Assembly: GCF_003112435.1 (NCBI RefSeq)
Contig: NZ_BDOQ01000019.1
Location: 62,001-126,000, forward strand
DNA from: Novimethylophilus kurashikiensis
Lineage (GTDB): Bacteria > Pseudomonadota > Gammaproteobacteria > Burkholderiales > Methylophilaceae
DNA: 64,000 nt
Direction: 5' to 3'
The notes below the pieces were generated by a model. It ran no database searches, was not told the DNA's origin, and worked only from the letters and a program-made list of their open reading frames with translations. Of the stretch, positions 13,787 to 64,000 are shown piece by piece. Position 1 is the stretch's first letter. The number at the start of each line of letters is the position of its first letter. The translations under genes were made by a program, and so were the position numbers.

Positions 13787-13823
13787 CGAGGAATGGCAGG
13801 CACGTGAGTGCCCGCCCTGAAGA

Positions 13824-14464: not shown

Positions 14465-14586
14465 ATGCGGCGCAGGAATGAATCAGGAAAGAGAGAGCAG
14501 CAGGTAGCAACACAACAACAGGGCTGATCGGCTTCAGGGAGGCCGATCAAGCGATAACTGATATAACACCGTAGAGGAGTGTAAGT

Positions 14587-15462: not shown

Positions 15463-15463
15463 C

Positions 15464-15497
15464 AAAAAAGGCGATGCATTTGCATCGCCTTTTTAAT
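15464..15497 (+). terminator. Terminator after coxC
   Basis: AAAAAGGCGATGCA / TGCATCGCCTTTTT with a two-base centre, one base after the coxC stop; symmetric, so it can also end the convergent DUF2909 gene. Confidence 0.92.
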
Positions 15498-15511
15498 TTA
15501 CTGCTGGTGAA

Positions 15512-15715
15512 TCAAGGATGGGGCTGGCCGATCAGCCCTAGCTTGAAGCTAATCAGCAACAGAATGAATAGCGTGATAGACAGCGAGATGCGGAGCGTCA
15601 AAGCCTTGGCTGTACGTTCACCCTTGCCTTTGTCTTTCATCATATAAAACAACGCAGAGAACAGGCTGGCGAGAATCAGTGCCAGCATGACGAGAATGAC
15701 GATTTTAGTCAGCAT
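15512..15715 (-). CDS. DUF2909 twin-transmembrane protein
   Basis: 67 residues from ATG 15715, with AAAGGAC upstream; the frame stays open 19 codons further but without membrane or conserved features. Two helices (ILVMLALILASLFSALFYMM and ISLSITLFILLLISFKLGL) joined by KDKGKGERTAKALTLR, the DUF2909 pattern. The family sits opposite the cox genes in many beta- and gammaproteobacteria; its function is unknown. Confidence 0.85.
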   Translation of the reverse strand: MLTKIVILVMLALILASLFSALFYMMKDKGKGERTAKALTLRISLSITLFILLLISFKLGLIGQPHP

Positions 15716-15759
15716 AAACAGTCCTTTGCATATAGGTTTTCCGATTATGCGGGGCGGTG

Positions 15760-16500
15760 ATGCCCTTGGCAATTAGAAAAAAACACAACGTGAATTTCGA
15801 GTTTCGACCCCAACTGATTCCTACGCTTGCAGCTATTGTGGCAATCGCCGTCATGGTGAAGCTGGGCTTTTGGCAATACAACAAAGCACAGCAAAAACTT
15901 ACCCTTCAGGCAGCCTATGTTGCACGACTGCACGAGCCTCCTGTTGCCTTGCCTGCAAAGGTCACCGATATCGAAGCATGGCGTTATCGCCATGTAACGG
16001 CTTCAGGTCATTACGATCCTCGCTATCAGATTTTGCTCGACAATCAGGTCGAAAATGAATCCGCCGGATATCACGTGATTACGCCGTTCATGCCCGATGG
16101 CGGTGGGGCAGTCGTGTTGGTTGACCGCGGATGGATTCCCATGGGGGATCGTGCGCATCTTCCTATTCCGAGCGTGCCGACCGAGACCATTCAAATCACG
16201 GGGGCTGCTTGGGTGCCGCCCAGCAAGTTTTTCGAATTGGCGACGCCGCTTCAATCTCAGGATTGGACGGCGCTATGGCAAAACCTGGATATCAAACGCT
16301 ATGCCGCTAGTGTGCCTTTCCCTGTGCTGCCATTTGTCGTGAGACTGGATTCCAATGTCGAAGGCGGGTTCGTGCGCAATTGGCCACAACCGGCAGAACG
16401 GGTGGAGACCAACATCGGCTATGCCTGGCAGTGGTGGGGCTTTGCCTTTACGCTGGCTTGCATTTGGGTCTATGTGAATTTCAGGAGAAAACCGGCATGA
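15760..16500 (+). CDS. SURF1-family cytochrome oxidase assembly protein
   Basis: 246 residues. Helps insert heme a into subunit I. Typical topology: an N-terminal transmembrane segment (LIPTLAAIVAIAVMVKLGFWQ), a periplasmic domain with WRYRHVTASGHYD, VLVDRGWIP and a C-terminal transmembrane segment starting NIGYAWQWWGFAFTLACIW. ATG 15760 follows GGGGCGG; a GTG one codon earlier is equally open. Its stop overlaps the next ATG (ATGA). Confidence 0.93.
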   Translation: MPLAIRKKHNVNFEFRPQLIPTLAAIVAIAVMVKLGFWQYNKAQQKLTLQAAYVARLHEPPVALPAKVTDIEAWRYRHVTASGHYDPRYQILLDNQVENESAGYHVITPFMPDGGGAVVLVDRGWIPMGDRAHLPIPSVPTETIQITGAAWVPPSKFFELATPLQSQDWTALWQNLDIKRYAASVPFPVLPFVVRLDSNVEGGFVRNWPQPAERVETNIGYAWQWWGFAFTLACIWVYVNFRRKPA

Positions 16501-17078
16501 ATTCGCAGCGCAAAGGCCGGCTGCAGTTATTGTTGCTGGTCATGGTATTCGTCTTACCCGTGTTGGCTGTTGTCGTGTTGCATTCAACCGATTGGCGGCC
16601 TGATGGCAAGAGCTATGGCGAATTATTTCAGCCGCCACGCCAACTCACTTTCCCTTCATTGAGCACTTCCGGGCACCAATCGTTTGATGCCGCCTCTTGG
16701 CAAGGGCATTGGCATTTAGTCTACGTGTCAGCGCAGGAGTGTGGAAGATCTTGCGGAGCCGATCTGCATATGTTGCGCCAATTGCACGCATCACTAGGCA
16801 AAGAAATCGATCGTTTACAGCGTGTCTGGCTCATTTCCGATTCATTACCGACAGATATCGCAAACATAGAAAATCAATACCAGGACTTGGTCATCCTTCC
16901 ACAATCCCGCGCACTCATCGCCCAGTTCGACCTACCGCACATACCTGCGGCTGACAGCAGAAGAATATATCTGGTGGATCCCTTGGGACATCTCGTCATG
17001 AGCTATCCGCCGAACAGCAATCCATACGGTATTCGTAAGGATTTGATGCGATTATTGTCTTATTCATGGGCGGGATAA
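16497..17078 (+). CDS. Sco-like membrane thioredoxin-fold protein lacking the copper histidine
   Basis: 193 residues: N-terminal transmembrane anchor (about 9-28) and a periplasmic domain with CGRSC (Cys82, Cys86), the CxxxC spacing of Sco proteins. Where Sco proteins have a DHSA histidine just before the YxxDPxG strand, this one reads ADSRRIYLVDPLG, so the third copper ligand is absent. It may work as a thiol oxidoreductase on CuA rather than as a copper donor. Start set at the ATG overlapping the SURF1 stop; the frame is open further up but within SURF1. Confidence 0.82.
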   Translation: MNSQRKGRLQLLLLVMVFVLPVLAVVVLHSTDWRPDGKSYGELFQPPRQLTFPSLSTSGHQSFDAASWQGHWHLVYVSAQECGRSCGADLHMLRQLHASLGKEIDRLQRVWLISDSLPTDIANIENQYQDLVILPQSRALIAQFDLPHIPAADSRRIYLVDPLGHLVMSYPPNSNPYGIRKDLMRLLSYSWAG

Positions 17079-17083
17079 TTAGG

Positions 17084-18055
17084 ATGCAGGCCAAATTCAG
17101 ATGGTTGGTATTGGGGACGGCGGCGCTGGCGCTCTGTGTAGTTGTCCTCGGCGCATTCGTAAGGCTTTCTGATGCCGGCCTTGGTTGTCCCGATTGGCCT
17201 GGATGTTACGGCCATATGGCGGTGCCGCAGGCCGACGCTGCTTTGCAGGCATTTCCGCAAAAGCCGCTTGAAGCGCATAAGGCCTGGAAGGAAATGGTTC
17301 ATCGTTATTTTGCGGGGACATTAGGTTTGCTGATCGGGGGGATTGCAATCGCTTCTTGGCGCGGTAAAGGTCGACTGCCTGTTACGCCGGTGATTCCAAC
17401 CGTGCTGGTGGGGCTGGTGCTGTTTCAGGCTGCATTGGGAATGTGGACGGTGACGCTGCTCCTCAAACCTGTGATCGTTAGCCTGCATTTGTTGGGTGGA
17501 ATGACGACCATGGCATTGTTGATGCTGCTTGCCAGCCTTCTTGAAAGTCAGCCTGTCCGTGTGCCTGAAGGAGTGAAGAGACTGGGTATTCTCGCCTTGC
17601 TGCTGCTGGTGGGGCAGATCGTACTGGGTGGTTGGACTAGTTCCAATTATGCTGCTCTGGCTTGTACCGAATTTCCCGAATGTCATGGCTCGTTTTGGCC
17701 AGCGATGGATTTTGGTAGAGCCTTTCATTTGATCCGTGAACTTGGCTTGAACGCAGATGGAACCCAACTTTCATCGGAGGCGCTGACTGCAATTCATATG
17801 ACACACCGAGTGGGTGCTTTGGTAGTCTTTTTGGCGCTAGGTTGGTTCGGTAGTCGCTTGTTAGTACTAGAACAAATGCGTTCGTGGGGAAGGTTGTTGT
17901 TGGGCCTGCTTACGATCCAAGTGGCGTTGGGTATCAGCAACGTGTTGTTGAGCTTGCAATTGCCCATTGCTGTAGCTCACAACGCTGGCGCAGCCTTGCT
18001 CTTGGCGACGATGGTAGTGATTAATTCTAAAACGATACGAGGAGATGCATCATGA
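17084..18055 (+). CDS. ctaA: Heme A synthase (COX15/CtaA family)
   Basis: 323 residues from ATG 17084; another ATG at 17066 would overlap the previous gene by 13 bases. Oxidises the C8 methyl of heme O to formyl, giving heme A. Eight hydrophobic segments; [21 protein letters not shown] near the N-terminus, the [11 protein letters not shown] histidine, the central [21 protein letters not shown] repeat and the second-half [11 protein letters not shown] are diagnostic of the Gram-negative type. Its end overlaps ctaB by four bases. Confidence 0.95.
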
Positions 18056-18960
18056 CGAGCGTAACCCTAAGCACCGGTCTTGAACGGCTCAGCATCAATT
18101 GCCGTAGCTTTTTCCTCATGTGCAAGCCGCGCGTGACGGCGCTTATTGTGTTTACCGCGTTGATCGGGATGTTTCTCGCAACGCCGGAAGCGCCGCCTCT
18201 TGGCTTGGTGCTAGCCGCAACCATCGGCATCGCCCTAACCTCAGGTGCAGCAGCAGCCTTTAACTGCTTGATCGAGCAGAAGATCGATGCCGTCATGGCC
18301 AGAACTCGTGCCCGTCCTTTACCTACAGGACAAGTCGGTTCCATTCAGACGGCGGTGTTTGCGACTGTGGTTGGTTTAATGGGGTTGGCTATCCTTTACC
18401 AGTACGTTAACCCGCTAACCATGTGGCTCACCTTCGGCACCTTCGTCGGATATGCCGTGATCTACACGATATTTCTTAAGCCCGCGACCCCGCTCAATAT
18501 CGTCATTGGCGGCGCCTCAGGTGCCATGCCGCCGATCCTGGGCTGGGCCGCCTTGACCAATACCGTCTCGCCGGATTCCTTGATCCTGTTCCTGATCATT
18601 TTTGCCTGGACGCCTCCGCATTTCTGGGCATTAGCCCTTTACCGCCGTAATGAGTACGCAAAATCTGGACTGCCCATGTTGCCGGTGACACACGGGGAAG
18701 AGTTCACACGCTTGCACATCTTGCTCTACACCATCATCTTGGTTGCTGTCACCTTGATGCCGATGGGCACGGGAATGTGCGGTGTAATTTATCTTGTTTC
18801 CGTGCTCGTGCTGGACGCCATCTTTATGGGATACGCCATCCAGATTTACCGTCGGTACAGCGACGAACTGGCCAAGCGTACATTCCGTTTTTCGATCATC
18901 TATCTCACCTTGCTGTTTGCAGTACTGCTTCTTGATCACTACCTGAAATTCCCGCTATAA
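18052..18960 (+). CDS. ctaB: Protoheme IX farnesyltransferase (heme O synthase)
   Basis: 302 residues, UbiA superfamily, about eight to nine membrane helices. Adds a farnesyl group to heme B. The prenyl-diphosphate site appears as Asn71-x3-Glu75-x3-Asp79 followed by [12 protein letters not shown], and the second site as the [20 protein letters not shown] loop; [15 protein letters not shown] is also diagnostic. Start overlaps the ctaA stop (ATGA). Also known as cyoE when linked to a bo3 oxidase; here it belongs to the aa3 set. Confidence 0.96.
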
Positions 18961-18990
18961 GCTTCTAATCCAGGCGGGGCGCCGATTTTG

Positions 18991-19021
18991 AGGGGTGTTG
19001 TATATTTGATACAACACCCCT
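18991..19021 (+). terminator. Hairpin terminator after ctaB
   Basis: 13-bp perfect stem AGGGGTGTTGTAT / ATACAACACCCCT with a 5-base loop, followed by AATTCTTT. The T-run is interrupted, so termination may be partial. The 130 bases after it up to ompW are very AT-rich and probably hold the ompW promoter, which I cannot place exactly. Confidence 0.7.
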
Positions 19022-19152
19022 AATTCTTTAGGTTTAATTCTTTTGTTCAGTTGCATTTAAAAACTGATGTAGTAATATTCTTAAACAAGATATTGATATC
19101 CGTTATACATTTTTATCCATTTATATTTTTTAAAGGCAAGGGAGCTTTGAAC

Positions 19153-19875
19153 ATGAAAAAAACTCTAGTGGCAATGGCAATCGCTGCAGCATTTGTGCCT
19201 GCAGTGGCAATGGCTGAAGCTGGTGACATCGTCGTGCGTCTGCGTGCTACTCATGTTTCGCCGGACGAGAGCAGTGATCTGGGTAAGCAGACCAACAACG
19301 TTTATGGCTCTACTACGCTCGCAAATACGGTTTATGGCAGCAATAACGCTGAGTTGCGCGTTGACAGCAACACCATTCCTGAGCTCGATTTTTCTTACTA
19401 CATCACCAAGAACATTGCTGCAGAATTAATCCTGGCGCTTGGTACTCGTCACGATGTTAGCGTGTCTGGTTCCGGCGGCATTCTCAATAAGCGTGGCCTG
19501 GGTAGCGTTAATCTCTTGCCCCCCACCCTTACCTTGCAATGGCACTTCATGCCCGATCAAACGTTCGATCCTTATGTCGGTGCCGGTCTGAGCTATGTTC
19601 GTGCGATGGACAACAGCTTGACTGCTCGCACGGCTCTTGGTGACTTGCCCATTCGGGTTGATCGCAATGCGTGGGGCCCTGCAATTCAAGCTGGCTTCGA
19701 CTACAACCTGCAAGACAAGTGGCTCATCAACGTTGATGTCAAAAAGATTTGGTTCGATACCGACGTTAAGCTGAACGCTCTAGGCGCAGCTGGTTTGCCC
19801 GTGGGATATCGCAAAATCGACAGCCTCGACGTAGATCCCTGGGTCGTCAGCGTCGGCTTCGGTAAGAAGTTCTAA
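19153..19875 (+). CDS. OmpW-family outer membrane protein
   Basis: 240 residues. MKKTLVAMAIAAAFVPAVAMA is a signal peptide cut after Ala21. The mature N-terminus GDIVVRLRATHVSPDESS is the OmpW signature; an amphipathic eight-strand barrel follows with FDPYVGAGLSY and a terminal Phe (VSVGFGKKF) for Bam recognition. OmpW proteins form narrow hydrophobic channels. GGGAG precedes the ATG. It has its own terminators on both sides and separates the ctaB operon from the Sco gene, which in related clusters usually stand together. Confidence 0.92.
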   Translation: MKKTLVAMAIAAAFVPAVAMAEAGDIVVRLRATHVSPDESSDLGKQTNNVYGSTTLANTVYGSNNAELRVDSNTIPELDFSYYITKNIAAELILALGTRHDVSVSGSGGILNKRGLGSVNLLPPTLTLQWHFMPDQTFDPYVGAGLSYVRAMDNSLTARTALGDLPIRVDRNAWGPAIQAGFDYNLQDKWLINVDVKKIWFDTDVKLNALGAAGLPVGYRKIDSLDVDPWVVSVGFGKKF

Positions 19876-19911
19876 ACGTGTTTTTCTGGTGCATCTCCTT
19901 GACGTTGCCTT

Positions 19912-19945
19912 ACCCCTTCCGGCCACATCGGAAGGGGCTTTTTTT
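19912..19945 (+). terminator. Terminator after ompW
   Basis: CCCCTTCC / GGAAGGGG stem (19913-19920 with 19930-19937) followed by CTTTTTTT. Confidence 0.92.
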
Positions 19946-19989
19946 GAGGTAAAAGGGATGTGCTAAAGTGCATCGGAGGAGGATTCCCG

Positions 19990-20571
19990 ATGCGAAAGAT
20001 TGCAGTAGCTGTATTGATGTTGTGTTTGCTTGGGTGCGCCGATAGGCAAGCCAAGGTCGAGTTTGTTGGGACGGATGTATCGGGAAGCCAGATCGGTGAC
20101 GATTTGGGATTGACCGATCAGGATGGCAAGGTTCGGCATTTATCCGATTTCAAAGGAAAGCTGGTCGTCCTTTTTTTTGGATATACACACTGCCCGGATA
20201 TCTGTCCGACAACGTTAATGGAGTTGACGAAGGCGATGCGACTGCTCGGGCCGAAAGGGCGAGAGGTTCAAGTGCTCTTCGTGACGCTCGATCCGGCCCG
20301 GGATCAGCCCGGTGTGCTCAAACAGTACGTGCCTTCCTTCGATCCCAGTTTTATCGGGCTCTGGGGAAGCGAAAAGCAGACGCAACAGGTCGCCAAGGAC
20401 TTCAGGATTTTCTACGCGAAACAGGCGTCCGGCGGCAGATCCGGCTACAGCATAGACCACAGCGCTGGACTTTATATATTTGATAAAAAAGGGAGAATCA
20501 GGGTTTATTCCAACCCTGGGCAGGGGGCGAAAGACATTGCTGGCGACTTGGGTAAGTTGCTGAATGAATAA
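19990..20571 (+). CDS. SCO1/SenC-family copper chaperone, lipoprotein
   Basis: 193 residues. Signal peptide with lipobox LLGC (Cys16), so it is anchored by lipid. The Sco domain has HCPDICPT (Cys68, Cys72) and the copper histidine in DHSAG (His157), all three ligands present, unlike the gene at 16497. Delivers copper to CuA of subunit II, and in some bacteria to cbb3. GGAGGA precedes the ATG. It sits between ompW and ccoN, so it could serve either oxidase. Confidence 0.95.
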
Positions 20572-20578
20572 GACAAAC

Positions 20579-20607
20579 TTGTCGTGTTAATTCGTTTGGC
20601 ATATACT
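20579..20607 (+). promoter_or_regulatory. Sigma70-like promoter of ccoNOQP
   Basis: TTGTCG (20579-20584), 17-base spacer, TATACT (20602-20607). The -35 overlaps a 12-base palindrome GACAA-AC-TTGTC (20572-20583) that starts right at the end of the Sco gene. I found no TTGAT-N4-ATCAA anaerobox between here and ccoN. Confidence 0.6.
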
Positions 20608-20669
20608 CGCCGGCCTGGAAAGCCACTTTGCCGCTGAGTTCGAGGCGTGGTTTGAGTGCAGTTTTTACG

Positions 20670-20681
20670 TTTTATTGGGGG
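20670..20681 (+). promoter_or_regulatory. ccoN leader motif shared with the microprotein gene
   Basis: TTTTATTGGGGG, 6 bases before the ccoN ATG. The same 12 bases occur at 63157-63168 before the microprotein ATG. The G-run probably acts as the ribosome site in both; no AGGAGG is present. Confidence 0.45.
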
Positions 20682-20687
20682 AAGCTA

Positions 20688-22127
20688 ATGGCAACGGTAA
20701 GTGTGGCTGCGAGCGAGCAATACAATTACGATATTGTCCGCAAATTCGCTATCATGACCCTAGTCTGGGGTGCGGTGGGGATGCTGGTGGGGGTGTATAT
20801 CGCCTCCGAATTGGCATTTCCGTTTCTAAATTTTGATATTCCTTATATCACCTTCGGTCGTCTGCGTCCGGTTCACACCGGTGCCGTGATTTTCGGTTTC
20901 GGCGGCAGCGCACTGTTTGCAACGTCTTATTACATCGTCCAGCGTACCTGCCAGGCACGTCTGTTCGGTGGCGGTCTTTCCACCTTCACCTTCTGGGGCT
21001 GGCAAACGATTATCGTGCTGGCGGCATTGGGCGATGTGCTGGGTTATTCCCAAGGCCGTGAATATGCTGAAATGTGCTGGCCGATCGACCTGTTGATCGA
21101 AGTGGTCTGGGTGGCATACCTAGCTGTCTTCGTCGGTACGATCATGAAGCGCAAGCAAGAGCATATCTATGTCGCCAACTGGTTCTACCTGGCCTTCATC
21201 CTGGCAACTGCGCTCCTGCATACCTTCAACAACCTGGCAGTGCCAATCAGCATGTTCTCGCTCGAGTCCTACAGCCTGTTCTCCGGCGCACAAGACGCGA
21301 TGACGCAATGGTGGTACGGCCACAACGCCGTGGGCTTCTTCCTGACCGCAGCCTTCCTGGGCATGATGTACTACTTCGTGCCTAAGCAAGCCGGCCGTCC
21401 GGTGTACTCCTACCGCCTGTCCATCGTCCACTTCTGGGCGCTGATCTTCCTGTACATGTGGGCGGGTACCCACCACCTGCACTGGACCGCGATCCCCGAC
21501 TGGACATCGACCCTGGCTGCCACCTTCTCCATCATGCTCTTGCTGCCTTCCTGGGGCGGTATGATCAACGGCATCATGACCCTGTCCGGTGCCTGGGAAA
21601 AGCTGCGCACCGACCCGGTCATGCGCTTCCTGATCGTGTCCTTGTCCTTCTACGGTATGTCTACGTTCGAAGGCCCGATGATGTCGCTTAAGGACGTGAA
21701 CGCGCTGTCTCACTACACTGATTGGACCGTCGGTCACGTGCACTCCGGTGCATTGGGCTGGGTGGCCATGATCTCCTTCGGTTCGCTGTATCACATGATT
21801 CCGCGTCTGTGGAACACCAACATGTACAGCAACAAGCTGATCAACGTGCACTTCTGGCTCGCAACTATCGGCATCCTGCTCTACATCACCGCAATGTGGA
21901 TCTCCGGCATCATGCAAGGTCTGATGTGGCGTGCATTCGATGATTTCGGCAACCTGCAATACTCCTTCGTGGAATCCGTTGCTGCGATGCATCCGTTCTA
22001 CGTGATGCGTGCACTGGGTGGTGTGTTCTTCCTGAGCGGCATGTTGCTGATGTGCTACAACATGTTCAAGACCATCAAGCAGGGCAGCGCAGAGCCGCAA
22101 ACTGACGCAGTCGCGGCAGCCGCCTGA
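20688..22127 (+). CDS. ccoN: cbb3-type cytochrome oxidase subunit I
   Basis: 479 residues from ATG 20688; the frame is open 20 codons further but that part has no conserved feature. About 12 transmembrane helices. High-affinity O2 reduction with heme b and heme b3-CuB. Seen: [17 protein letters not shown] with a heme b histidine, the [18 protein letters not shown] block (CuB His), [17 protein letters not shown] with the paired CuB histidines, and [15 protein letters not shown] for the hemes. Codons are strongly C-ending, as expected for high expression. Confidence 0.98.
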
Positions 22128-22156
22128 TCGGACGAGTTGAGATTACTGGAGCTGAA

Positions 22157-22909
22157 ATGAAACACGATAAAATCGAACGTAACCTCGGGCTGATGCTGGT
22201 GTTGACCATGCTGGCAATCAGCGCCGGGGGCCTGGTTGAAATCGTTCCGCTGTTCTTCATCAAGGACACGGTGGAAAGCGTCAAGACCGCAGACGGCAAG
22301 GAAATGGTTCACCCCTATTCCCCGCTTGAACTGCGCGGTCGCGACATCTACATCCGCGAAGGCTGCTACCTGTGCCACTCGCAGATGATCCGCCCGTTCC
22401 GCGATGAAGCCCTGCGTTACGGCCACTACTCGCTGGCTGCCGAGTCCAAGTACGACCACCCCTTCCAGTGGGGTTCCAAGCGTACCGGTCCGGACCTGGC
22501 CCGTGTAGGCGGCAAGTACTCCAACGACTGGCATGTGCAGCACTTGACCGCACCGCGTTCCATGGTGCCGGAATCCGTGATGCCTAACTATCCATGGCTC
22601 ATCAAGACGCCGTTGGATACGTCGGACATCGGGCTGCGCATGGCTGCCTTGCGTGTGACTGGCGTGCCTTACTCCAAGGGTGAGGCCGAATATCAGCAAA
22701 ACGTGAAGACCTTCGGGGAAGACGTCGCGAAGAACCTGCGTATCGAAAATGCCGAAGCCAACCTGCGTGCGCAGGCTGCCAGCGGCAACTACGATAACAA
22801 TCCGAGCGATGTGACCGAAATGGACGCACTCGTGGCTTATCTGCAAGTGCTGGGCACGATGGTCGATTTCAAGCAGTTCGACGACGACTACTTCGTCAAA
22901 TTCCGCTAA
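22157..22909 (+). CDS. ccoO: cbb3-type cytochrome oxidase subunit II (monoheme c)
   Basis: 250 residues. One N-terminal membrane anchor ([23 protein letters not shown]), then a periplasmic cytochrome c domain with [14 protein letters not shown] (Cys70, Cys73, His74) and the distal methionine region SVMPNYPWL. Accepts electrons from CcoP or soluble cytochrome c. The C-terminus DYFVKFR ends the fold. CTGGAG precedes the ATG; 29 bases after ccoN. Confidence 0.97.
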
Positions 22910-22927
22910 TCGAGAGGAATCGCCGAA

Positions 22928-23089
22928 ATGGAAATGTTGATGTGGTTTACCAAGTTCGAGAATACCAAGCCCTTGGCACTGGTCATTTTCTTCACTTTGT
23001 TCTGCATGATCTTGTACTACGTGTTCGGGAGCAAACAGCGAGGCGAGCGCTTGGAAGACCACAAAAACATTCCGCTGCAAGACGACTAA
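22928..23089 (+). CDS. ccoQ: cbb3-type cytochrome oxidase subunit CcoQ
   Basis: 53 residues: one transmembrane helix (LALVIFFTLFCMILYYVFG) followed by KQRGERLEDHKNIPLQDD, the standard CcoQ/FixQ tail. Lies 18 bases after ccoO and 40 before ccoP; GAGAGGAA precedes the ATG. CcoQ stabilises the CcoP interaction in the assembled enzyme. Confidence 0.93.
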   Translation: MEMLMWFTKFENTKPLALVIFFTLFCMILYYVFGSKQRGERLEDHKNIPLQDD

Positions 23090-23129
23090 TTGCATGCTGA
23101 TTAACACGCATGACTGAGGGATCAAAATC

Positions 23130-24059
23130 ATGAGTCAGGAACAAAAGAGTACCGTTCAAACGACAGGCCACGTCTGGGACGACGACCTGCGCGAAGCAAC
23201 CAATCCGTTGCCAAATTGGTGGCTGTGGACCTTCTACATCACCATCATCTTCGCAATCGTCTACTGGGTCCTGTACCCGGCATGGCCGATCGGCAAGAGC
23301 TTCACCAAAGGCATGGGCAACAACATCAGCTACACCGCCAAGACCGTTGATGGCAAGGAAGTACAGAAGTCCACGCACTGGAACATGCGTGCCAAGCTGA
23401 TGGCCGAAATGAACGAAGCGCAAGCCGCGCAACAGAAGTACGTCGCCAAAGTGGCTGCAACGCCGCTGGCCGATGTGCCCAAGGATGCCGAGCTGATGCA
23501 GTTCGTGCAGTCCTCCGGCAAGACGCTGTTCTCCGACAACTGCGCAGCCTGTCACCAGGCCGGCGGTCAAGGCAAGGTGGGCATGGCGCCTAACCTGGTC
23601 GACGACAGCTGGATTTACGGCGGTAGCTACGAGAAGATCAACGAGACCATCACCAACGGTCGTAACGGCATGATGCCGGCTTTCCACGGCGTGCTGACCG
23701 ACGAGAAGATCACGCAAGTTGCTAATTATGTGTTGAGCCTCTCAGGCGAACCGCATAATGCAGAAGCCGCCAAGGCTGGCGACGCGATCTTCCACGGCGA
23801 AGGCGGTTGCTTGGTCTGTCACGGTCCGGATGCCAAGGGTAACCAGGATCTGGGTTCTGCCAATCTGACCGATAAGATCTGGCTGTGGGCAAACGTTCCC
23901 GCGCAATCCACTCCGGAAGGCAAGCTGGATGAAGTGCGCAAGGTCATCACCGCAGGCGTCAGCCGCGGCAAGATGCCGACTTGGGGCGGCCGTCTCTCCG
24001 CAGAACAGATCAAGGTGCTGACCGTTTACGTGCACGACGTGCTGGGTGGCGGTAAGTAA
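23130..24059 (+). CDS. ccoP: cbb3-type cytochrome oxidase subunit III (diheme c)
   Basis: 309 residues. N-terminal GHVWDDDLREATNPLPNWWLWTF precedes one visible transmembrane segment (here single, as in beta-type CcoP). Two c-type heme sites: CAACH (Cys138, Cys141, His142) and CLVCH (Cys227, Cys230, His231), each with a downstream methionine (NGMMPAF, GKMPTWGG). Feeds electrons to CcoO. A terminator follows, so ccoNOQP is the primary transcription unit. Confidence 0.97.
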   Translation: MSQEQKSTVQTTGHVWDDDLREATNPLPNWWLWTFYITIIFAIVYWVLYPAWPIGKSFTKGMGNNISYTAKTVDGKEVQKSTHWNMRAKLMAEMNEAQAAQQKYVAKVAATPLADVPKDAELMQFVQSSGKTLFSDNCAACHQAGGQGKVGMAPNLVDDSWIYGGSYEKINETITNGRNGMMPAFHGVLTDEKITQVANYVLSLSGEPHNAEAAKAGDAIFHGEGGCLVCHGPDAKGNQDLGSANLTDKIWLWANVPAQSTPEGKLDEVRKVITAGVSRGKMPTWGGRLSAEQIKVLTVYVHDVLGGGK

Positions 24060-24105
24060 TCAAGAACTGCAATAATCTGCCGTAGTTTGTAGCATCTCAA
24101 ATCAA

Positions 24106-24142
24106 CAAAGGCTCGCGTATGTACGTGGGCCTTTGTGCTTTT
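24106..24142 (+). terminator. Terminator after ccoP
   Basis: CAAAGGC / GCCTTTG (24106-24112 with 24129-24135) around a 16-base loop, then TGCTTTT. A weak stem, so read-through into ccoG is likely. Confidence 0.6.
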
Positions 24143-24159
24143 AGGAAATTAGCAAAGTC

Positions 24160-25599
24160 ATGTCGGAAACAGGGGCGTTGTACCAGAAGCGGATTCCCAT
24201 CTACACCCGTTCGGTCAAGGGCAAGTTCAGAAACTTCAAGACCGGCGTCCTGATTCTGGCATTTAGCATATTCTTTGGCTTGCCGTGGCTGCCATGGCAT
24301 CGCAGCAGCGCTGCTGCCCAGGCGTTGATGTTCGACCTGGAATCGCGCCGATTTTTCATCTTCGACCTGGTGGTCTATCCGCAAGATATTTTCTGGCTGG
24401 CGCTTCTGCTGTTCATCGCCGCCGCATTCCTGTTTTTTGTGACAGGGCTGGTTGGCCGCGCCTGGTGCGGATATTTCTGCTTCCAGACACTCTGGCTCGA
24501 CTGCTTCATGTTCATCGAGCACTTTTTCCAGGGCGAACGTCCCGCACGCATGCGCCTGGCCAAGCAATCCTGGAATGCCGAAAAAATAATGAAGGTCGGG
24601 GGCTCGCATCTGGTGATGCTGCTTGTCTCGTTCTGGACCGGCTTCACCTTCATTGCCTATTTCACCTACGCACCCGATTTCTTCATCAATTTCTTTCACG
24701 GCGCCGCACACCCCACCGCATATTTTTCGGTGCTCACCCTAACCCTGACCACCTATGCCGCCGGCGGTGTTGCCCGGGAACAAATCTGTACCTACATCTG
24801 CCCGTATGCCCGCTTCCAAAGTGTCATGTACGAGCAAGATACCCTGGCACCCAGCTACGACCTGAAGCGTGGTGAAGGCGCAGCCGGACGTGTCGCGCCC
24901 AAGGCCGGCATCAAGACCCAGGAAGAGCGCCAATCCAAGGGCCATGGCGACTGTATTGACTGCGGCTTTTGCGTGCAGGTGTGCCCCACGGGGGTCGATA
25001 TTCGCAAGGGCTTGCAGTATCAGTGCATCTCCTGCGGGCTGTGCGTCGATGCGTGCAACACCATCATGGATTCGCTGGGCTGGAAGCGTGGCCTGATCCG
25101 CTACGACTCGGAGCGCAACGTTCATAGCCCTGCACCAGCCAAGCCACAGCTCAAATGGAAGAATCTCAAGGTAATCGGATACGCCACGGCCTTGATCGTC
25201 ATGAGTGCGGCTTTGGTATACAACATCGGCACCCGCAGCGACGCCGAGGTGCGTATCTCCCAGGTCCGTCAGCCGCTCTTCATACATCTCTCCGACGAGA
25301 AAATCCGCAACCGCTACGAGGTGCATATCGTCAACAAGACCGAGCATGACGAGAGCTATACGATCAAGGTACATGGCATTCCTGAGGATGCCTTGAACAT
25401 GGGCGTGGAACCCAATCCCATGACGATTCGTGCCGGCAAGGATCGTCGCGTGCCGGTCAAGGTCGACCTGGATGAGCATCTCGCAGAAAAAACGCGCGAG
25501 TTCGATTTCGTCATCGTGGCCAAGAGCAATCCCGAGACGCCGGTGGTGCGCAGCGTACACTTCAATGCCGAGCATCAGGAAAACGACGAGCATCATTAA
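24160..25599 (+). CDS. ccoG: cbb3 oxidase maturation protein CcoG (RdxA/FixG)
   Basis: 479 residues, about five transmembrane helices with two cytoplasmic 4Fe-4S clusters: CIDCGFCVQVCP (Cys265, 268, 271, 275) and CISCGLCVDAC (Cys289, 292, 295, 299), plus the membrane motifs RAWCGYFCFQTLW and CTYICPYARFQ. A C-terminal Ig-like periplasmic domain follows from about 370. CcoG is thought to reduce Cu(II) for the cbb3 CuB site. Ribosome site before ATG 24160 is AGGAA. Confidence 0.96.
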   Translation: MSETGALYQKRIPIYTRSVKGKFRNFKTGVLILAFSIFFGLPWLPWHRSSAAAQALMFDLESRRFFIFDLVVYPQDIFWLALLLFIAAAFLFFVTGLVGRAWCGYFCFQTLWLDCFMFIEHFFQGERPARMRLAKQSWNAEKIMKVGGSHLVMLLVSFWTGFTFIAYFTYAPDFFINFFHGAAHPTAYFSVLTLTLTTYAAGGVAREQICTYICPYARFQSVMYEQDTLAPSYDLKRGEGAAGRVAPKAGIKTQEERQSKGHGDCIDCGFCVQVCPTGVDIRKGLQYQCISCGLCVDACNTIMDSLGWKRGLIRYDSERNVHSPAPAKPQLKWKNLKVIGYATALIVMSAALVYNIGTRSDAEVRISQVRQPLFIHLSDEKIRNRYEVHIVNKTEHDESYTIKVHGIPEDALNMGVEPNPMTIRAGKDRRVPVKVDLDEHLAEKTREFDFVIVAKSNPETPVVRSVHFNAEHQENDEHH

Positions 25600-25611
25600 C
25601 AAGAGGTGAAT

Positions 25612-26388
25612 ATGACTATTACCGAAACGCTGTTCGGCGGACTGTTCGCAGTCGCCATCCTGTTCATGGCAGCCCGTCGTTTGGGGCTGTCGTATTACTG
25701 GAGCGCCATCTTGGGCGGCGCCTTGCCTTTCCTGACTTTCCTGGGGTGGAGCATGGCAACCACAGGCTTGGGCGGCGACGTACTGGCGATTCACCTCGTG
25801 GTCTACATGGCTGGGGCGGCCGTGCTTGGGGTGTTCGGCAACATGCAAAGCAAAAAAGAACCGATGCATTGGGCACCCAAGTTGCTCATCGCGTTCTTTG
25901 TCGTATTGACGCTGTTCATGGCGGCTTTCGTTTCTATCGCGACTAACGGTTTACCCGACTCGGTGGCTCAACTCATCATGCCCAATGCCCACAACCAGGC
26001 AACGCATACCCGTTTTCCGGGTGCCGTACCGCATGATCGTAACCACCTCTACGAACCTCATCTCCAACGGCTGGAGCAGCAGCGAAACCTGGGTTGGCAA
26101 GTCGAATTGAAGGGCTTCGACGCCATCAAGGAAAATACGCCTGCCCAGGTCCAGATCGTTGCCAAGGACAAGCAGGGCGCGCCCATCGAAGGCGCGAAGG
26201 TGACGCTCGACCTGTGGCGCATGGCCAATAGCGCAGACGACCGCAAGGTGGAGATGACCGAGAAGTCTGCCGGGGCCTATGCCACCGAACTCAATTTGGG
26301 CGATGCCGGTAACTGGATCGTCGAGATTTACGTCGAGCGCGGGCAGGATAGCTACCTTGTACAGCAGCCCCTTACGGTAGTGGAATAA
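25612..26388 (+). CDS. FixH/CcoH-like protein with extra N-terminal membrane domain
   Basis: 258 residues from ATG 25612, which has AAGAGGTGAAT directly ahead. The C-terminal half (from about 150: LGWQVELKGF, VQIVAKDKQGAPIEGAKVTLDLWR, NWIVEIYVERGQ) is the periplasmic FixH domain needed for cbb3 assembly. Ordinary FixH has one membrane anchor and about 160 residues. Here about 115 residues with roughly four hydrophobic segments precede it, so it looks like a fusion or extended form. Position between ccoG and ccoI supports the FixH role. Confidence 0.83.
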   Translation: MTITETLFGGLFAVAILFMAARRLGLSYYWSAILGGALPFLTFLGWSMATTGLGGDVLAIHLVVYMAGAAVLGVFGNMQSKKEPMHWAPKLLIAFFVVLTLFMAAFVSIATNGLPDSVAQLIMPNAHNQATHTRFPGAVPHDRNHLYEPHLQRLEQQRNLGWQVELKGFDAIKENTPAQVQIVAKDKQGAPIEGAKVTLDLWRMANSADDRKVEMTEKSAGAYATELNLGDAGNWIVEIYVERGQDSYLVQQPLTVVE

Positions 26389-26397
26389 CGCATATCG

Positions 26398-28803
26398 ATG
26401 GACGCAGTGACGACCAGCTGCTATCACTGCGGCCTCCCCGTTCCCGCCGATACTGACTTCAAGATCACCATTCTCGAAGTGCCGCGGGAGATGTGCTGCC
26501 ACGGCTGCATGGCGGTGGCCGAATCCATCGTTGAGAACGGCCTGGACGATTATTATCGCTACCGGACCGAGATGCCCAAGACGGCCGAGGATCTGGTCCC
26601 GGACGAACTGCGCAAACTCGATTTGTATGACCTGCCGGACGTGCAGAAGAGCTTTGTGCGAGCCGAGGGCGAGCATATCAAGCAGGCGTCTCTCATCCTA
26701 GAAGGTATCACTTGCGCCGCCTGTATCTGGCTTAACGAACGCCATCTCAAGCAGTTGCCCGGCGTTAAGGAAGCCAATGTCAATTACGCCTCGCACCGTG
26801 CTCGTGTCACCTGGGACGAGCGCGAGATCAAGCTCTCCACCATCCTGGCGGAGATCCGCAAGCTCGGCTACCAGGCCCATCCCTTCAACGCGCAGCAGCA
26901 GGAATCCTTGCGCAAGCAATCCCGTAAGATCGAGTTTCGCCGTATGGCGGTCGCTGGCTTGTCGACCGGACAGGTCATGATGCTGGCGGTGGCCCTGTAT
27001 GCCGGAGCCGCGCAAGGCATGGAAATCGCCACCGCGGCTTTGTTGCGCTGGTTCAGCCTGCTCATGACCGTGCCGGCCATGTTGTACTCGGCCGTACCGT
27101 TCTACCAATCGGCGGCGATGGCGCTGCGGCGCAAGCAGGTCAACATGGACGTGCCCATTGTGCTGGGTCTGCTGGCGGGGTTTGTCGGCAGCCTTTGGGC
27201 GACCTTCCGCAATGAAGGCGTAGTCTATTACGACACGCTGACCATGCTGATTTTTCTGCTGCTTTCCACGCGTTTCCTGGAGCGCAATGCACGGGAAAAA
27301 TCCGTCGAGGCGGCTGAGAACCTGCTTCGCTTGACGCCGGCCATGGCGACCAAAATCAGCGATGGGCAGTCCGAGATGGTTCCCGTTATGGACCTCCTGC
27401 CCGGCGATTTCATCCTGGCCAAACCAGGTGAAACCATCGCTGCCGACGGTCTGGTGGAAGAGGGGGCCAGCAGTGTCGACGAATCTCTATTGACCGGCGA
27501 AAGCCGCGCCTTGCCCAAGTCGATTGGCGACAAGGTCGTGGCCGGCAGCATCAATTACGAAAGCCCGCTGACGATTCGCGTGACCGAAGTTGGCGAAGAT
27601 ACCGTGCTGGCCGGCATCGCACGCTTGCTGGATCGTGCCCAGGCCGAAAAGCCGCGCATGGCACAAACGGCAGACCAACTCGCCGTCTGGTTTACCTACG
27701 TGCTGCTGGCGATCGTGGTACTGGCAGGCCTAGGCTGGTGGTATTTCAACCCTGCCAAGATTTTCGACGTGGTGCTCTCGGTGCTGGTGGTGAGCTGTCC
27801 TTGCGCGCTCTCCCTGGCGGCTCCAGCTGCGTTTGCAGCAGCGGGTTCGCATCTGGTCAAGCGGGGAGTGCTGCTGACACGCGGCCATGCCCTGGAAACC
27901 CTCGCCAAGGTCACCCACGTGGTGTTCGATAAAACCGGCACATTGACTGAAGGCAAGCCCGCGCTGGTCGCGCATCATGTTTATAGCGAGGTCGATCAAG
28001 CGCAATGCCTGCGATTGGCTGCCAGCCTGGAACAGGCTTCTGAACATCCCTTGGCAAAGAGCTTTCTCAAAGCAGTAGAAAAGTATCATTTGGCTGCCGT
28101 GGATGGCGCAGAGAATCTGCCGGGACAGGGTGTGGCTGGCTTCATTGAAGGCATTCGCTACACCTTGGGCAACGCCGCGCTCACACCGGCGCTTACCTTG
28201 CCCACCGTGGAAGGCATTCCTGGCGCCACCGTGGTTTGGCTGTGCGATCCGCGACGTGTGCTGGCGGCTTTTGTTCTGGCAGATGCTCCGCGTCCGCAAG
28301 CGGCTGAACTCATTCGTACGCTTAAAGAGCAAGGCGTGCGCGTATCCATGTTGAGCGGGGACGCACCTGAGGCGGCTACCTGGCATGCGGCAGCCTTGGG
28401 CATCGACCAGGTGTTCGGAGGGCTTTCTCCTGACGGCAAGCTCAATGAACTGATGCGTATGCAAGCCAGCGGCGAGGTGATCGCCATGGTAGGCGACGGC
28501 GTCAACGATGCCCCCGTGCTGGCCGGCGCTCCGGTATCTATCGCCATGGGTAGCGGTACGCAAATGGCGCGGGCCTCAGGCGATATCGTGCTTTTGTCGG
28601 AAAACCTCATGGAGATTGCCCACGCGCGCTACATGAGCCGTTTTACCATGAGCGTGATCCATCAGAACTTCATCTGGTCGCTGGCGTATAACCTGATTGC
28701 CGTACCGGTGGCCGTGGCCGGCTATTTGTCGCCATGGCTTGCGGCATTGGGGATGTCGGTGAGCTCGTTGATCGTAGTGCTGAATGCCCTGCGGCTGCGA
28801 TAG
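26398..28803 (+). CDS. ccoI: Copper-exporting P-type ATPase CcoI/FixI for cbb3 assembly
   Basis: 801 residues. N-terminal cysteine-rich region (MCCHGC at 32-37, with Cys8 and Cys11), then a heavy-metal domain with ITCAACIW (Cys106, Cys109). Transmembrane copper site Cys467-Pro468-Cys469, phosphorylation motif DKTGTLTEGKP (Asp511), LTGESRALPKS in the actuator, and AMVGDGVNDAPVLAGAPVSIAMGSG at the hinge. Exports copper for the CuB centre of CcoN rather than for detoxification. Begins 9 bases after the FixH-like gene. No ccoS follows, against the usual order. Confidence 0.96.
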   Translation: MDAVTTSCYHCGLPVPADTDFKITILEVPREMCCHGCMAVAESIVENGLDDYYRYRTEMPKTAEDLVPDELRKLDLYDLPDVQKSFVRAEGEHIKQASLILEGITCAACIWLNERHLKQLPGVKEANVNYASHRARVTWDEREIKLSTILAEIRKLGYQAHPFNAQQQESLRKQSRKIEFRRMAVAGLSTGQVMMLAVALYAGAAQGMEIATAALLRWFSLLMTVPAMLYSAVPFYQSAAMALRRKQVNMDVPIVLGLLAGFVGSLWATFRNEGVVYYDTLTMLIFLLLSTRFLERNAREKSVEAAENLLRLTPAMATKISDGQSEMVPVMDLLPGDFILAKPGETIAADGLVEEGASSVDESLLTGESRALPKSIGDKVVAGSINYESPLTIRVTEVGEDTVLAGIARLLDRAQAEKPRMAQTADQLAVWFTYVLLAIVVLAGLGWWYFNPAKIFDVVLSVLVVSCPCALSLAAPAAFAAAGSHLVKRGVLLTRGHALETLAKVTHVVFDKTGTLTEGKPALVAHHVYSEVDQAQCLRLAASLEQASEHPLAKSFLKAVEKYHLAAVDGAENLPGQGVAGFIEGIRYTLGNAALTPALTLPTVEGIPGATVVWLCDPRRVLAAFVLADAPRPQAAELIRTLKEQGVRVSMLSGDAPEAATWHAAALGIDQVFGGLSPDGKLNELMRMQASGEVIAMVGDGVNDAPVLAGAPVSIAMGSGTQMARASGDIVLLSENLMEIAHARYMSRFTMSVIHQNFIWSLAYNLIAVPVAVAGYLSPWLAALGMSVSSLIVVLNALRLR

Positions 28804-60815: not shown

Positions 60816-60979
60816 AGGCTTGAAATCATACCAGAAAGGCCAGGGTTCAAATTGCGCCGTCGCCCACATAGCAACGTCGAGATGCCGCGCTAAAAGCCCG
60901 TCATATTATGCTGATTCCGTTGAATTTTCATTAGTTTGTGCTAGAGTTCCACCAATTCTTAAGTCCGGATTCGCGCTAC

Positions 60980-62935
60980 ATGGGTACTCTTGCCGATCAG
61001 TTCAATGCATACAGTCAATGGCGCGGCGGCCTGGTCGACACGCTTTGCGATTACCGTGCATGGCTGAACGAGCAGGAACTCAACGACGCCCAGATCGACC
61101 TGCGTATCCAGCATTTGCTGGATCGGTTGCGCGACGACAAGCTCAACGTGGCCTTCGTCGCCGAGTTTTCGCGCGGCAAATCCGAACTCATCAACGCCAT
61201 TTTCTTCGCCGATTACGGCCAACGCTTGCTGCCTTCCAGCGCCGGACGCACCACCATGTGCCCGACCGAACTGCTGTACGACGAGTCCAAGCCGACTTCA
61301 TTGCAGTTGTTGCCCATCGAGACACGCACTTCTGATGCGACGACGACCGAATACAAGCGTTATGCCGACGAGTGGAAAGTGTTCGAGTTCGACCTCGATT
61401 CCAGCGAGAGCATGATCGCCGCGTTCAAGCAGGTGAGTCTCACCAAGCAGGTATCGCAGGACGAGGCTGTGCGCTATGGGTTGTTCGACCCGAACAATCC
61501 GGATGACGCCATGAATCTCAACCCGGACGGTACAGTCGATATCCCGGCTTGGCGCTATGCCGTCATCAATTTTCCCCACCCTTTGCTCAAGCAAGGACTG
61601 GTGATCCTGGATACTCCTGGGCTCAACGCCATCGGTACCGAGCCGGAGCTCACGCTCAACATGCTGCCTAACGCGCACGCCGTGCTGTTTATCCTGGCGG
61701 CCGATACCGGCGTCACCAAGTCCGAGATCGATGTCTGGCGCCATTACATCAGCGGGACACGCTGGAAGCAAAAGGGCCGCCTTGCAGTGATGAACAAGAT
61801 CGACGGTCTGTGGGATGAGTTGAAAAGCGATGCCCAGATCGAGCGCGAGATCGGCAAGCAGATTGCAACCAGCGCTGAGTTGCTGGGCTTGCAACCCAGT
61901 CAGATTTTCCCGGTGTCTGCGCAAAAAGGCCTGCTTGCCAAGGTCAACCAGGACGATGCACTGCTGGATAAAAGCCGCCTGCTGGAACTGGAGCGCGCAC
62001 TGTCGGACGAGTTGATTCCTTCCAAGAAGGAGATCGTGCGGGACAACACCCAGAATGAGATCGAGGACCTGCTCAGCAATTCCGCCAATCTCCTCGATGC
62101 GCGGTTGCACAACCTGATCGAGCAACTGGAAGAGCTTCGCGGACTGAGAGGCAAGAACGAAGACGTGGTCGAGCACATGATGGCCAAGGTCAAGGTGGAC
62201 AAGGAGAGCTTCGAGAAAGGCTTGCAGCGCTTCCAGGCGCTGCGTAGCGTGTTCTCGCAGCAAACCAATAACCTGTTCACCTACCTCGGCATGGAAACGC
62301 TCAAGGCCGAGGTGGCGAAGACGCACGAGGCCATGGTGAAAAGCAATTTCACCAAGGGCATCCGTACCGCGATGGACAACTTTTTCGCCGACTTGAAGTC
62401 CAAACTGACGCAATCTGAAAACCAGGTCGCGGAAATCAAGAACATGATGGATGCCATGTATAAGCGCTTTTCTGAAGAGCATGGCTTGAAGCAAGTCGAG
62501 CCGCCGGCATTTTCGACGCTACGCTATCAGAAAGAGTTGAACAAGCTGGAGCGCGCCTATAAGGAGCAGTTCGATACCGCATTTAACATGCTGACCAACG
62601 AAAAGATGACGCTGACCACCAAGTTCTTCGAAACCTTGGCAAGCCGCGTCATCCATGTGTACGAAGTTGCCAATCGTGACGTTGAAAGCTGGCTGAAGGC
62701 GGTGATGGCACCGATGGAATCGCAAGTGCGTGAGCATCAATTGCAGCTGCGTCGCCGCCTGGAAAGCATCAAGCGCATCTACCAGGCCACGGGAACGCTG
62801 GAAGAGCGTATCGGCGAGTTGGAAGCCATGGAAAAGTCCATACACGCACAAATGAAGGATGTGCGAGTGCTGCGTCAGCATATCGGCAACGCGCTCGCCT
62901 TTGATGTGCCGCACAAGGAAGAGCAAGCAGCATGA
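60980..62935 (+). CDS. Dynamin-like GTPase (bacterial dynamin family)
   Basis: 651 residues from ATG 60980 (a GTG 14 codons earlier is open). GTPase domain: G1 AEFSRGKSELINA (Lys67), the SSAGRTTMCPTEL switch I threonines, G3 DTPG (Asp211) and G4 NKID (Asn272). The rest is long helices with heptad-like leucines (IEQLEELRGLRGKNEDVVEHMMAK, LRRRLESIKRIYQATGTLEERIGELE), expected for a stalk. No obvious transmembrane paddle helix. Bacterial dynamins bind and remodel membranes. Its TGA overlaps the ATG of ccoS, so the two are translationally coupled. Confidence 0.88.
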   Translation: MGTLADQFNAYSQWRGGLVDTLCDYRAWLNEQELNDAQIDLRIQHLLDRLRDDKLNVAFVAEFSRGKSELINAIFFADYGQRLLPSSAGRTTMCPTELLYDESKPTSLQLLPIETRTSDATTTEYKRYADEWKVFEFDLDSSESMIAAFKQVSLTKQVSQDEAVRYGLFDPNNPDDAMNLNPDGTVDIPAWRYAVINFPHPLLKQGLVILDTPGLNAIGTEPELTLNMLPNAHAVLFILAADTGVTKSEIDVWRHYISGTRWKQKGRLAVMNKIDGLWDELKSDAQIEREIGKQIATSAELLGLQPSQIFPVSAQKGLLAKVNQDDALLDKSRLLELERALSDELIPSKKEIVRDNTQNEIEDLLSNSANLLDARLHNLIEQLEELRGLRGKNEDVVEHMMAKVKVDKESFEKGLQRFQALRSVFSQQTNNLFTYLGMETLKAEVAKTHEAMVKSNFTKGIRTAMDNFFADLKSKLTQSENQVAEIKNMMDAMYKRFSEEHGLKQVEPPAFSTLRYQKELNKLERAYKEQFDTAFNMLTNEKMTLTTKFFETLASRVIHVYEVANRDVESWLKAVMAPMESQVREHQLQLRRRLESIKRIYQATGTLEERIGELEAMEKSIHAQMKDVRVLRQHIGNALAFDVPHKEEQAA

Positions 62936-63111
62936 CCCCGATTCTTTTATTTCTCTTCGGCTTGACGTTGGTATTCGTGGGCTTTGCCGCAGTGGGTATC
63001 CTATGGGCCATCAAGAGTGGCCAGTTCGACGACCTCGAAGGCCCTGCGCAGCGAATCCTGATGGATGACGACGATCCCATGATCCCGTTCAACGCCAAGC
63101 ACAAGCCTTAG
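62932..63111 (+). CDS. ccoS: cbb3-type cytochrome oxidase assembly protein CcoS
   Basis: 59 residues: one transmembrane helix (ILLFLFGLTLVFVGFAAVGILWAI) and SGQFDDLEGPAQRILMDDD, the CcoS signature. CcoS is needed to put heme b and copper into CcoN. It should stand after ccoI, but here ccoI at 28803 has no ccoS, and this gene is 34 kb away, joined to the dynamin-like gene by an ATGA overlap. Confidence 0.93.
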   Translation: MTPILLFLFGLTLVFVGFAAVGILWAIKSGQFDDLEGPAQRILMDDDDPMIPFNAKHKP

Positions 63112-63113
63112 TA

Positions 63114-63142
63114 TTGAAAGCTGGAAGGGGTTGGATTAAAAT
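63114..63142 (+). promoter_or_regulatory. Sigma70-like promoter of the microprotein gene
   Basis: TTGAAA (63114-63119), 17-base spacer, TAAAAT (63137-63142). Starts three bases after the ccoS stop. Confidence 0.7.
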
Positions 63143-63156
63143 GCGACGTCTGCGTC

Positions 63157-63168
63157 TTTTATTGGGGG
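63157..63168 (+). promoter_or_regulatory. Leader motif shared with ccoN
   Basis: TTTTATTGGGGG, identical to 20670-20681; 9 bases before the microprotein ATG. Confidence 0.45.
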
Positions 63169-63177
63169 TCAAATAAC

Positions 63178-63276
63178 ATGGGTAAGCTCTTCACTTGGGA
63201 AAACGCTCCGATGACGGTGATCGTCACTTTGATCGTCTGGTCTTGGATCGCTTTCTTCTCCGTCATCCTGGCCTAA
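63178..63276 (+). CDS. Unrecognised 32-residue single-helix membrane microprotein
   Basis: MGKLFTWENAPMT then one hydrophobic helix (VIVTLIVWSWIAFFSVILA) to the C-terminus. It has a promoter (63114-63142), a G-rich ribosome site and its own terminator (63303-63335), so it is a complete small transcription unit and not a chance frame. Lying behind ccoS and sharing a leader with ccoN, it may be an accessory subunit or assembly peptide of the cbb3 oxidase. I do not recognise the family; an sRNA with an incidental frame is the alternative. Confidence 0.65.
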   Translation: MGKLFTWENAPMTVIVTLIVWSWIAFFSVILA

Positions 63277-63302
63277 CCGGATCCGGATTTAGAATTCACC
63301 AA

Positions 63303-63335
63303 ATAAAAACGGCTGCCTAGGCAGCCGTTTTTATT
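63303..63335. terminator. Bidirectional terminator between microprotein and rpoH
   Basis: Perfect palindrome AAAAACGGCTGC-CTAG-GCAGCCGTTTTT (63305-63332) with A and T flanks; ends both convergent units. Confidence 0.92.
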
Positions 63336-63351
63336 TTCTGTGCTTGGCTTA

Positions 63352-64000
<649 letters not shown>

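Follow-up and report, generated by a model that had tools for sequence, protein, structure and literature searches.

A 32-residue single-helix peptide encoded behind ccoS, a probable overlooked component or helper of one branch of cbb3 oxidases

Here, we describe a small gene directly downstream of ccoS in Novimethylophilus kurashikiensis, whose product is probably a hitherto overlooked component of, or helper to, one branch of the cbb3 oxidases, enzymes that allow bacterial respiration at very low oxygen. Judged by its conservation and codon-level selection, the gene is genuine and belongs to a family that extends across beta- and gammaproteobacteria. The family keeps almost entirely to genomes with ccoN, sits mostly behind ccoS, and accompanies a single well-supported clade of the catalytic subunit CcoN. 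A first-pass annotation had proposed the cbb3 link from the gene neighborhood; co-occurrence with ccoN and restriction to one CcoN clade now carry this proposal further.

The gene lies near the end of the window, i.e., the whole analyzed stretch of 64,000 nucleotides (contig NZ_BDOQ01000019.1, positions 62,001 to 126,000). Its open reading frame (63178..63276, + strand) encodes the 32 amino acids MGKLFTWENAPMTVIVTLIVWSWIAFFSVILA, a putative single-helix membrane protein, and ends with a TAA stop. A G-rich ribosome-binding site, GGGGG (63164..63168, + strand), was read directly from the sequence 9 nt ahead of the ATG at 63178. Further upstream is a putative sigma-70-type promoter (63114..63142, + strand, 10 of 12 consensus positions matched) with a -35 element TTGAAA (63114-63119), a 17-nt spacer, and a -10 element TAAAAT (63137-63142). 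The frame is followed by a perfect 16-bp hairpin, AAATAAAAACGGCTGC-CTAG-GCAGCCGTTTTTATTT (63301..63336, no strand assigned), with an A-run and a T-run. All of these elements had been listed in the first-pass annotation between ccoS and rpoH, and all were confirmed in the sequence. Directly 5' of the peptide region, ccoS (FixS; 62932..63111, + strand) encodes the cbb3 oxidase assembly protein and is matched by PF03597 (66.2 bits, cut-off 23.1) and TIGR00847 (49.9 bits, cut-off 28.35). On the minus strand, the convergent frame at 63352..63999, which we take from its sequence to be rpoH, runs past the window end.

The rest of the cbb3 cluster in the window (ccoN, O, Q, P, G, H, I; 20688-28803) is situated about 40 kb upstream of ccoS. 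The catalytic subunit gene ccoN (20688..22127, + strand; TIGR00780, 753.3 bits, cut-off 583.15) belongs to the peptide-bearing clade, and the nearest solved chains to its product are 9g6b, 3mk7/5djq, and 8smr; a literature search for entry 9g6b returned no paper. From the list of open reading frames and the gene order, we presume that the following genes, all on the + strand, are ccoO (22157..22909), a separate ccoQ between ccoO and ccoP (22928..23089), and ccoP, ccoG, ccoH, and ccoI (23130..28803). The window CcoQ had no match of note among PDB sequences. A weak haem-copper oxidase match was seen at 12902-13513 (22 bits, below the ccoN cut-off), followed by frames that presumably represent ctaA, cyoE, and a Sco protein and then by the cbb3 cluster; the region from about 12900 to 28800 reads as a respiratory-oxidase island.

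In a search for relatives of the peptide, 28 of 61 genomes gave a match at E ≤1 with the single sequence, some of them clearly by chance, and matches inside long or unrelated frames (among them those in G006, G012, G018, G021, and G026) were dropped. With a profile of 23 rows (A1), the own family yielded accepted matches for 39 of 187 genomes (any match at E ≤0.05: 52), an order sample for 55 of 399 (any match: 64), and a class sample for 54 of 369 (any match at E ≤0.01: 57), after genomes with a best E >1e-3 had been dropped (13 of the 52, 9 of the 64, and 3 of the 57, respectively). Both larger samples were drawn evenly from larger groups and have the window genome in common. The weakest accepted class genomes had E values of 1e-4 to 5e-4; two of them carry ccoI, ccoS, and the peptide gene in a row (G628, G764) and the third has the peptide gene without cco genes (G692). 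Carriers include Thiohalophilus thiocyanatoxydans, Thiohalobacter thiocyanaticus, and Plasticicumulans lactativorans.

Comparison of 173 codon cores of 21 codons each shows that the peptide frame is under purifying selection and that the shifted frames are not. Across 75 independent pairs pS was 0.42 and pN 0.11, corresponding to a dN/dS of about 0.19, which agrees with the Ka/Ks below 1 that the first-pass annotation had named as a check. In three divergence classes pN/pS ranged from 0.16 to 0.36 for the peptide frame, as compared to 0.84-1.04 and 2.4-2.8 for the shifted frames, and mismatches at codon positions 1, 2, and 3 numbered 9741, 3841, and 15956. Conservation and codon selection together rule out a chance open reading frame. 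The peptide has a hydropathy maximum of 2.5, and AlphaFold run without an alignment predicted one helix spanning residues 10-31 (mean pLDDT 84.9). Among 166 distinct peptides the helix has a conserved core, [SA]-[WY]-x-S-x-x-[ST]-V, preceded by an FTFxNxP cap. Cysteine occurs in only 3 of these 166 peptides and histidine in 24, in 13 of which it is confined to the last two residues. Direct delivery of copper or haem is therefore unlikely, as there is no conserved cysteine and no generally conserved histidine, and the conserved pattern would fit a packing helix better than a metal carrier.

Conservation beside ccoS, proposed as a check in the first-pass annotation, was sought by profile search and found: ccoS precedes the peptide gene by less than 500 nt, in the same orientation, at 140 of 173 loci (E <1e-6), and no locus has it in another orientation; the median gap to the profile start is 54.5 nt. 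A census of 178 distinct peptide loci (E ≤1e-3 in the pooled set) gave ccoS close upstream together with a convergent rpoH downstream at 102 loci, ccoS only at 39, rpoH only at 20 (no ccoS within 500 nt), and neither at 17, so that ccoS is near the peptide gene at 141 and rpoH at 122 of the 178 loci; that rpoH comes close to ccoS in frequency weighs against a role tied to the oxidase. Synteny with rpoH alone is insufficient to explain the association with ccoS, because at 39 loci ccoS is present and rpoH is missing from the next 1 kb; for 36 of them at least 1 kb of sequence was available in which rpoH could have shown. At 88 of the 140 ccoS-linked loci, and at most loci outside the own family, ccoI stands ahead of ccoS. 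Elsewhere in the order, outside the own family, either ccoI-ccoS or ccoG-ccoH-ccoS precedes the peptide gene, and rpoH faces it convergently. At L088, L100, and L105 the order is ccoP-G-H-I-S-peptide and then rpoH and two genes that we take from their sequences to be ftsX and ftsE; L090 and L091 have the same order from ccoG onward, and L098 is a cluster end without rpoH. The class genomes often have ccoN 5-10 kb upstream on the same contig (e.g., G652, G904, G695). The own family has parted the ccoS-peptide-rpoH group from ccoI, with no ccoI within reach at 39 of 39 loci; this parting, and the roughly 40 kb to ccoN in the window, likewise count against a role tied to the oxidase. Tandem pairs of the peptide gene were observed at L067, L073, L106, and L205.

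Nearly all peptide-bearing genomes carry ccoN, called by TIGR00780 at E ≤1e-100. This gene was detected in 272 of the 399 genomes of the order sample and in 196 of the 369 of the class sample, and in 53 of the 55 and 54 of the 54 peptide-bearing genomes of these samples, a co-occurrence with hypergeometric P values, both of which ignore shared ancestry, of 5.3e-8 (order) and 2.7e-17 (class). The order sample has two exceptions, both drafts: G218 (92% complete) and G305 (86% complete), in which ccoI or ccoI-ccoS directly precedes a peptide copy (L178, L165).

The reverse does not hold, as most ccoN-bearing genomes are without the peptide, and the phylogeny of CcoN divides the two groups. A first tree of 60 rows comprised 26 CcoN of peptide genomes (mostly from the cluster adjoining the peptide gene), 14 further copies that these genomes carry, and 20 CcoN of peptide-free genomes; all 26 peptide CcoN were split from the 34 others with a support of 100/100. 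After addition of 20 further CcoN, 15 of them from own-family peptide genomes, the 80-row tree placed 41 of 41 peptide-genome CcoN in one clade (SH-aLRT 99). The 14 other copies from peptide genomes (11 gammaproteobacterial, 3 own-family) all fell outside this clade, as did 24 of 25 CcoN of peptide-free genomes, the exception being G012, a genome of 76% completeness in which ccoS was likewise not found. The same separation was apparent within the own family: among 37 genomes, a CcoN of this clade (clade a) is present in each of the 22 that carry the peptide, and among the 15 peptide-free ones G012 alone has it; seven of the remainder have CcoN of the other kind only and seven no ccoN above the cut-off. 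Two own-family genomes, G006 and G026, carry an extra divergent CcoN (725-728 bits) that groups with the peptide-free kind. A broad profile of 64 rows (A3) gave no convincing match in 42 ccoN-bearing, peptide-free genomes, the best (E 0.016) lying inside a 1019-residue frame; 40 of the 42 have ccoS. A related open reading frame was also sought 3' of ccoS in peptide-free genomes and none convincing was found among 30 loci, at 17 of which ccoS could be placed by its motif (at L228 wrongly, and at L243 with 131 nt of downstream sequence).

It is reasonable to propose, and in our judgment more likely than not, that the peptide is a single-helix accessory subunit of the cbb3 branch defined by the peptide-bearing CcoN clade, analogous to CcoM and CydX. 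Briefly, the peptide would be made from the housekeeping-type promoter of its own gene, perhaps also by read-through from ccoS, and would insert into the inner membrane as one helix formed by approximately residues 10-31. The conserved face [SA]-[WY]-x-S-x-x-[ST]-V might then pack against clade-a CcoN, with the FTFxNxP cap at the membrane surface. The peptide would stay bound as a stabilizing accessory subunit, a role that CydX fills in cytochrome bd and CcoM in the cbb3 oxidase of Pseudomonas.

The main rival to the accessory-subunit reading is that the peptide serves the same CcoN clade only transiently, during assembly. It would then help CcoS to insert cofactors or join subunits and be absent from the finished enzyme. 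The most constant neighbor of the peptide gene is indeed the assembly gene ccoS and not the structural genes, and CcoS, CcoI, and CcoG are described as assembly factors in the part of PMC8267372 used here. On the other hand, the peptide gene often has its own promoter, the peptide lacks conserved metal ligands, and it follows one CcoN clade whereas ccoS accompanies both kinds of CcoN. None of these three points is decisive, and we regard a role confined to assembly as unlikely, though as a serious alternative.

A more far-reaching, and improbable, version of the accessory-subunit reading is that the peptide marks a functionally distinct kind of cbb3 oxidase. Comparing the 42 CcoN rows of the peptide clade with the other 38 gave 17 clade-specific positions, of which six fall within 266-282, in and just after a segment that presumably holds active-site histidines; these positions were sought post hoc and are exploratory. 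In this version the peptide would dock near CcoN 266-282 and tune oxygen binding or proton uptake, with its unlinked paralogs as exchangeable isoforms. If true, bacteria with both kinds of oxidase would set how one of them works by means of a microprotein.

Not all copies of the peptide gene are close to cco genes. At 33 of 173 loci there is no ccoS within 500 nt. Contig ends are close to three of these (L039, L142, L145), two more are the second copies of tandem pairs, and another two follow ccoI without a ccoS match. At one locus ccoS is 1.4 kb upstream, ten have rpoH beside them and no close ccoS, and about 14 are paralogs in unrelated surroundings, G692 and G743 having added two more of the latter. 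For two rpoH-side copies (G615, G755) the complete cco cluster was found upstream, at 7-16 kb and in the same orientation. No cco gene was detected in the 5-19 kb upstream of the copies in G228, G272, G382, G440, G646, G661, and G875 (the G440 stretch stops at the contig end), in 13 kb around the peptide gene of G520 (6 kb of it upstream), or in longer stretches around the paralogs in G312, G469, and G497. The genomes of these ccoS-unlinked copies all carry ccoN elsewhere, except G218. Some unlinked copies may do something else or may serve the oxidase from a distance, and the paralogs may be isoforms or may reflect a family with other uses. Family members off cco loci were noted at L086, L087, L089, L092, L093, L095, L096, L097, and L099 and further at L101, L102, L160, L162, L167, L171, L328, and L329, several of them extra copies. 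The loci that lack cco genes in long upstream stretches slightly lower our confidence that the peptide is a bound subunit.

These copies bear on another alternative hypothesis, namely that the peptide is a small membrane protein with a general function in stress or regulation and that its adjacency to ccoS is nothing but old synteny. Unlinked paralogs in varied surroundings would be expected of such a protein, as would the eight genomes that have an rpoH-side copy and no cco gene found nearby. A general protein is, however, difficult to reconcile with the occurrence of ccoN in every peptide-bearing class genome and with the absence of the peptide from all 14 own-family genomes (of 37) that lack a clade-a CcoN, and we consider this hypothesis improbable.

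The peptide family appears to be new. Neither the window peptide nor the 23 members of profile A1 matched any Pfam or NCBIfam family. The search of PDB sequences at E ≤10 revealed no relative of the single sequence, and the profile gave chance matches only; matches to the mineralocorticoid receptor (E 0.05-1.1) and a reaction centre (E 7.7) were rejected as such. Among the open-licence literature matches listed, none pointed by title or beginning of the abstract to a small protein behind ccoS. The first-pass annotation had likewise named no known small oxidase subunit (CcoQ, CydX, CcoM) as a match.

Few small partners of cbb3 oxidases are described in the text of PMC8267372 that we draw on, namely CcoQ, CcoH, and CcoM, and CcoZ in Campylobacter. 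According to the same part of that source, CcoM of Pseudomonas is a single-helix subunit needed for stability and not for activity, and its length is given as 36 amino acids in an excerpt of PMC10433244. CcoM of Pseudomonas stutzeri thus resembles the peptide in length and in having a single helix, and it is accessory to a cbb3 oxidase; yet CcoM is described, in the portions of these sources at hand, from some Pseudomonas, whereas the peptide family occurs downstream of ccoS across many families of beta- and gammaproteobacteria. CcoQ (FixQ) is also a small single-helix protein of the cbb3 cluster, but the peptide does not match PF05545. A detached CcoQ was ruled out as the identity of the peptide because the window has a separate ccoQ. 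CcoS, in turn, is also a small membrane protein and an assembly factor of the same oxidase, encoded directly upstream, but the peptide has neither a PF03597 match nor the LEGPxxRILMDDDDP tail that is found in ccoS. It seems to us a slim chance that the peptide is a distant CcoM or CcoQ instead of a new family: the size and single-helix build shared with CcoM would allow it, but the window encodes its own CcoQ and a search of PDB sequences at E ≤10 with the single sequence and the profile retrieved no chain named CcoM or CcoQ.

The closest precedent, as far as the consulted part of PMC4325964 shows, is CydX, a 37-residue single-helix subunit whose presence groups with one CydA clade, just as the peptide follows one clade of CcoN. 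CydX, however, belongs to an unrelated oxidase, cytochrome bd, whereas the peptide is without a Pfam or NCBIfam match and has cco genes as neighbors.

The promoter and the terminator were evaluated by their recurrence. In the window alone the promoter was not above chance (1 found, 0.8 expected), and a terminator scan of the window did not report the hairpin at 63301-63336; RNA folding of 63277-63345 gave -27.5 kcal/mol (z -5.1), with none of 200 shuffles as good. Of 172 peptide loci with sufficient flanking sequence, 98 had a promoter matching at least 9 of 12 positions within 120 nt 5' of the gene, as compared to 15.4 expected from shuffles, and 116 had a terminator hairpin within 130 nt 3' of it (3.3 expected). 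The corresponding numbers for 38 own-family loci were 27 promoters (4.6 expected) and 33 terminators (0.8 expected), and most of these loci again showed TTGAAN-17-TAAAAT or TAAACT. By eye, a G-rich stretch is present at a similar position in many relatives. We accept both elements because their recurrence across loci far exceeds chance, unlike the window-only test. The hairpin is symmetrical (A-run, stem, T-run) and sits between convergent genes, and therefore it is probably bidirectional, terminating the peptide gene and also rpoH. No terminator was detected between ccoS and the peptide frame, so that read-through from ccoS is possible alongside transcription from the gene's own promoter. The description of the gene as self-contained in the first-pass annotation consequently stands for the recurring promoter and terminator and has to be softened in that the terminator is probably shared with rpoH. 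That the mRNA or a small RNA and not the peptide is what matters would suit the short predicted transcript with its promoter and strong terminator, but codon-specific selection and the lack of any Rfam family reaching its gathering score over 62000-64000 (eight weak matches, the best with 27.4 bits against 54) leave this explanation almost no probability.

A family of about 30 residues that is present in roughly one seventh of the sampled order and class genomes is covered by no Pfam or NCBIfam model. It could account for unassigned helices in future structures and serves as a simple genetic marker of one cbb3 branch; in addition, the peptide gene is a small, easily deleted target for studying how helper helices act on haem-copper oxidases.

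A dynamin-family GTPase gene (60938..62935, + strand; Dynamin_N 62.7 bits, cut-off 27) precedes ccoS in the window, and a gene of this family does so at 25 of the 39 own-family peptide loci. The end of the window gene and the start of ccoS share four bases; this suggests that translation of the oxidase assembly gene is coupled to that of a membrane-remodelling GTPase.
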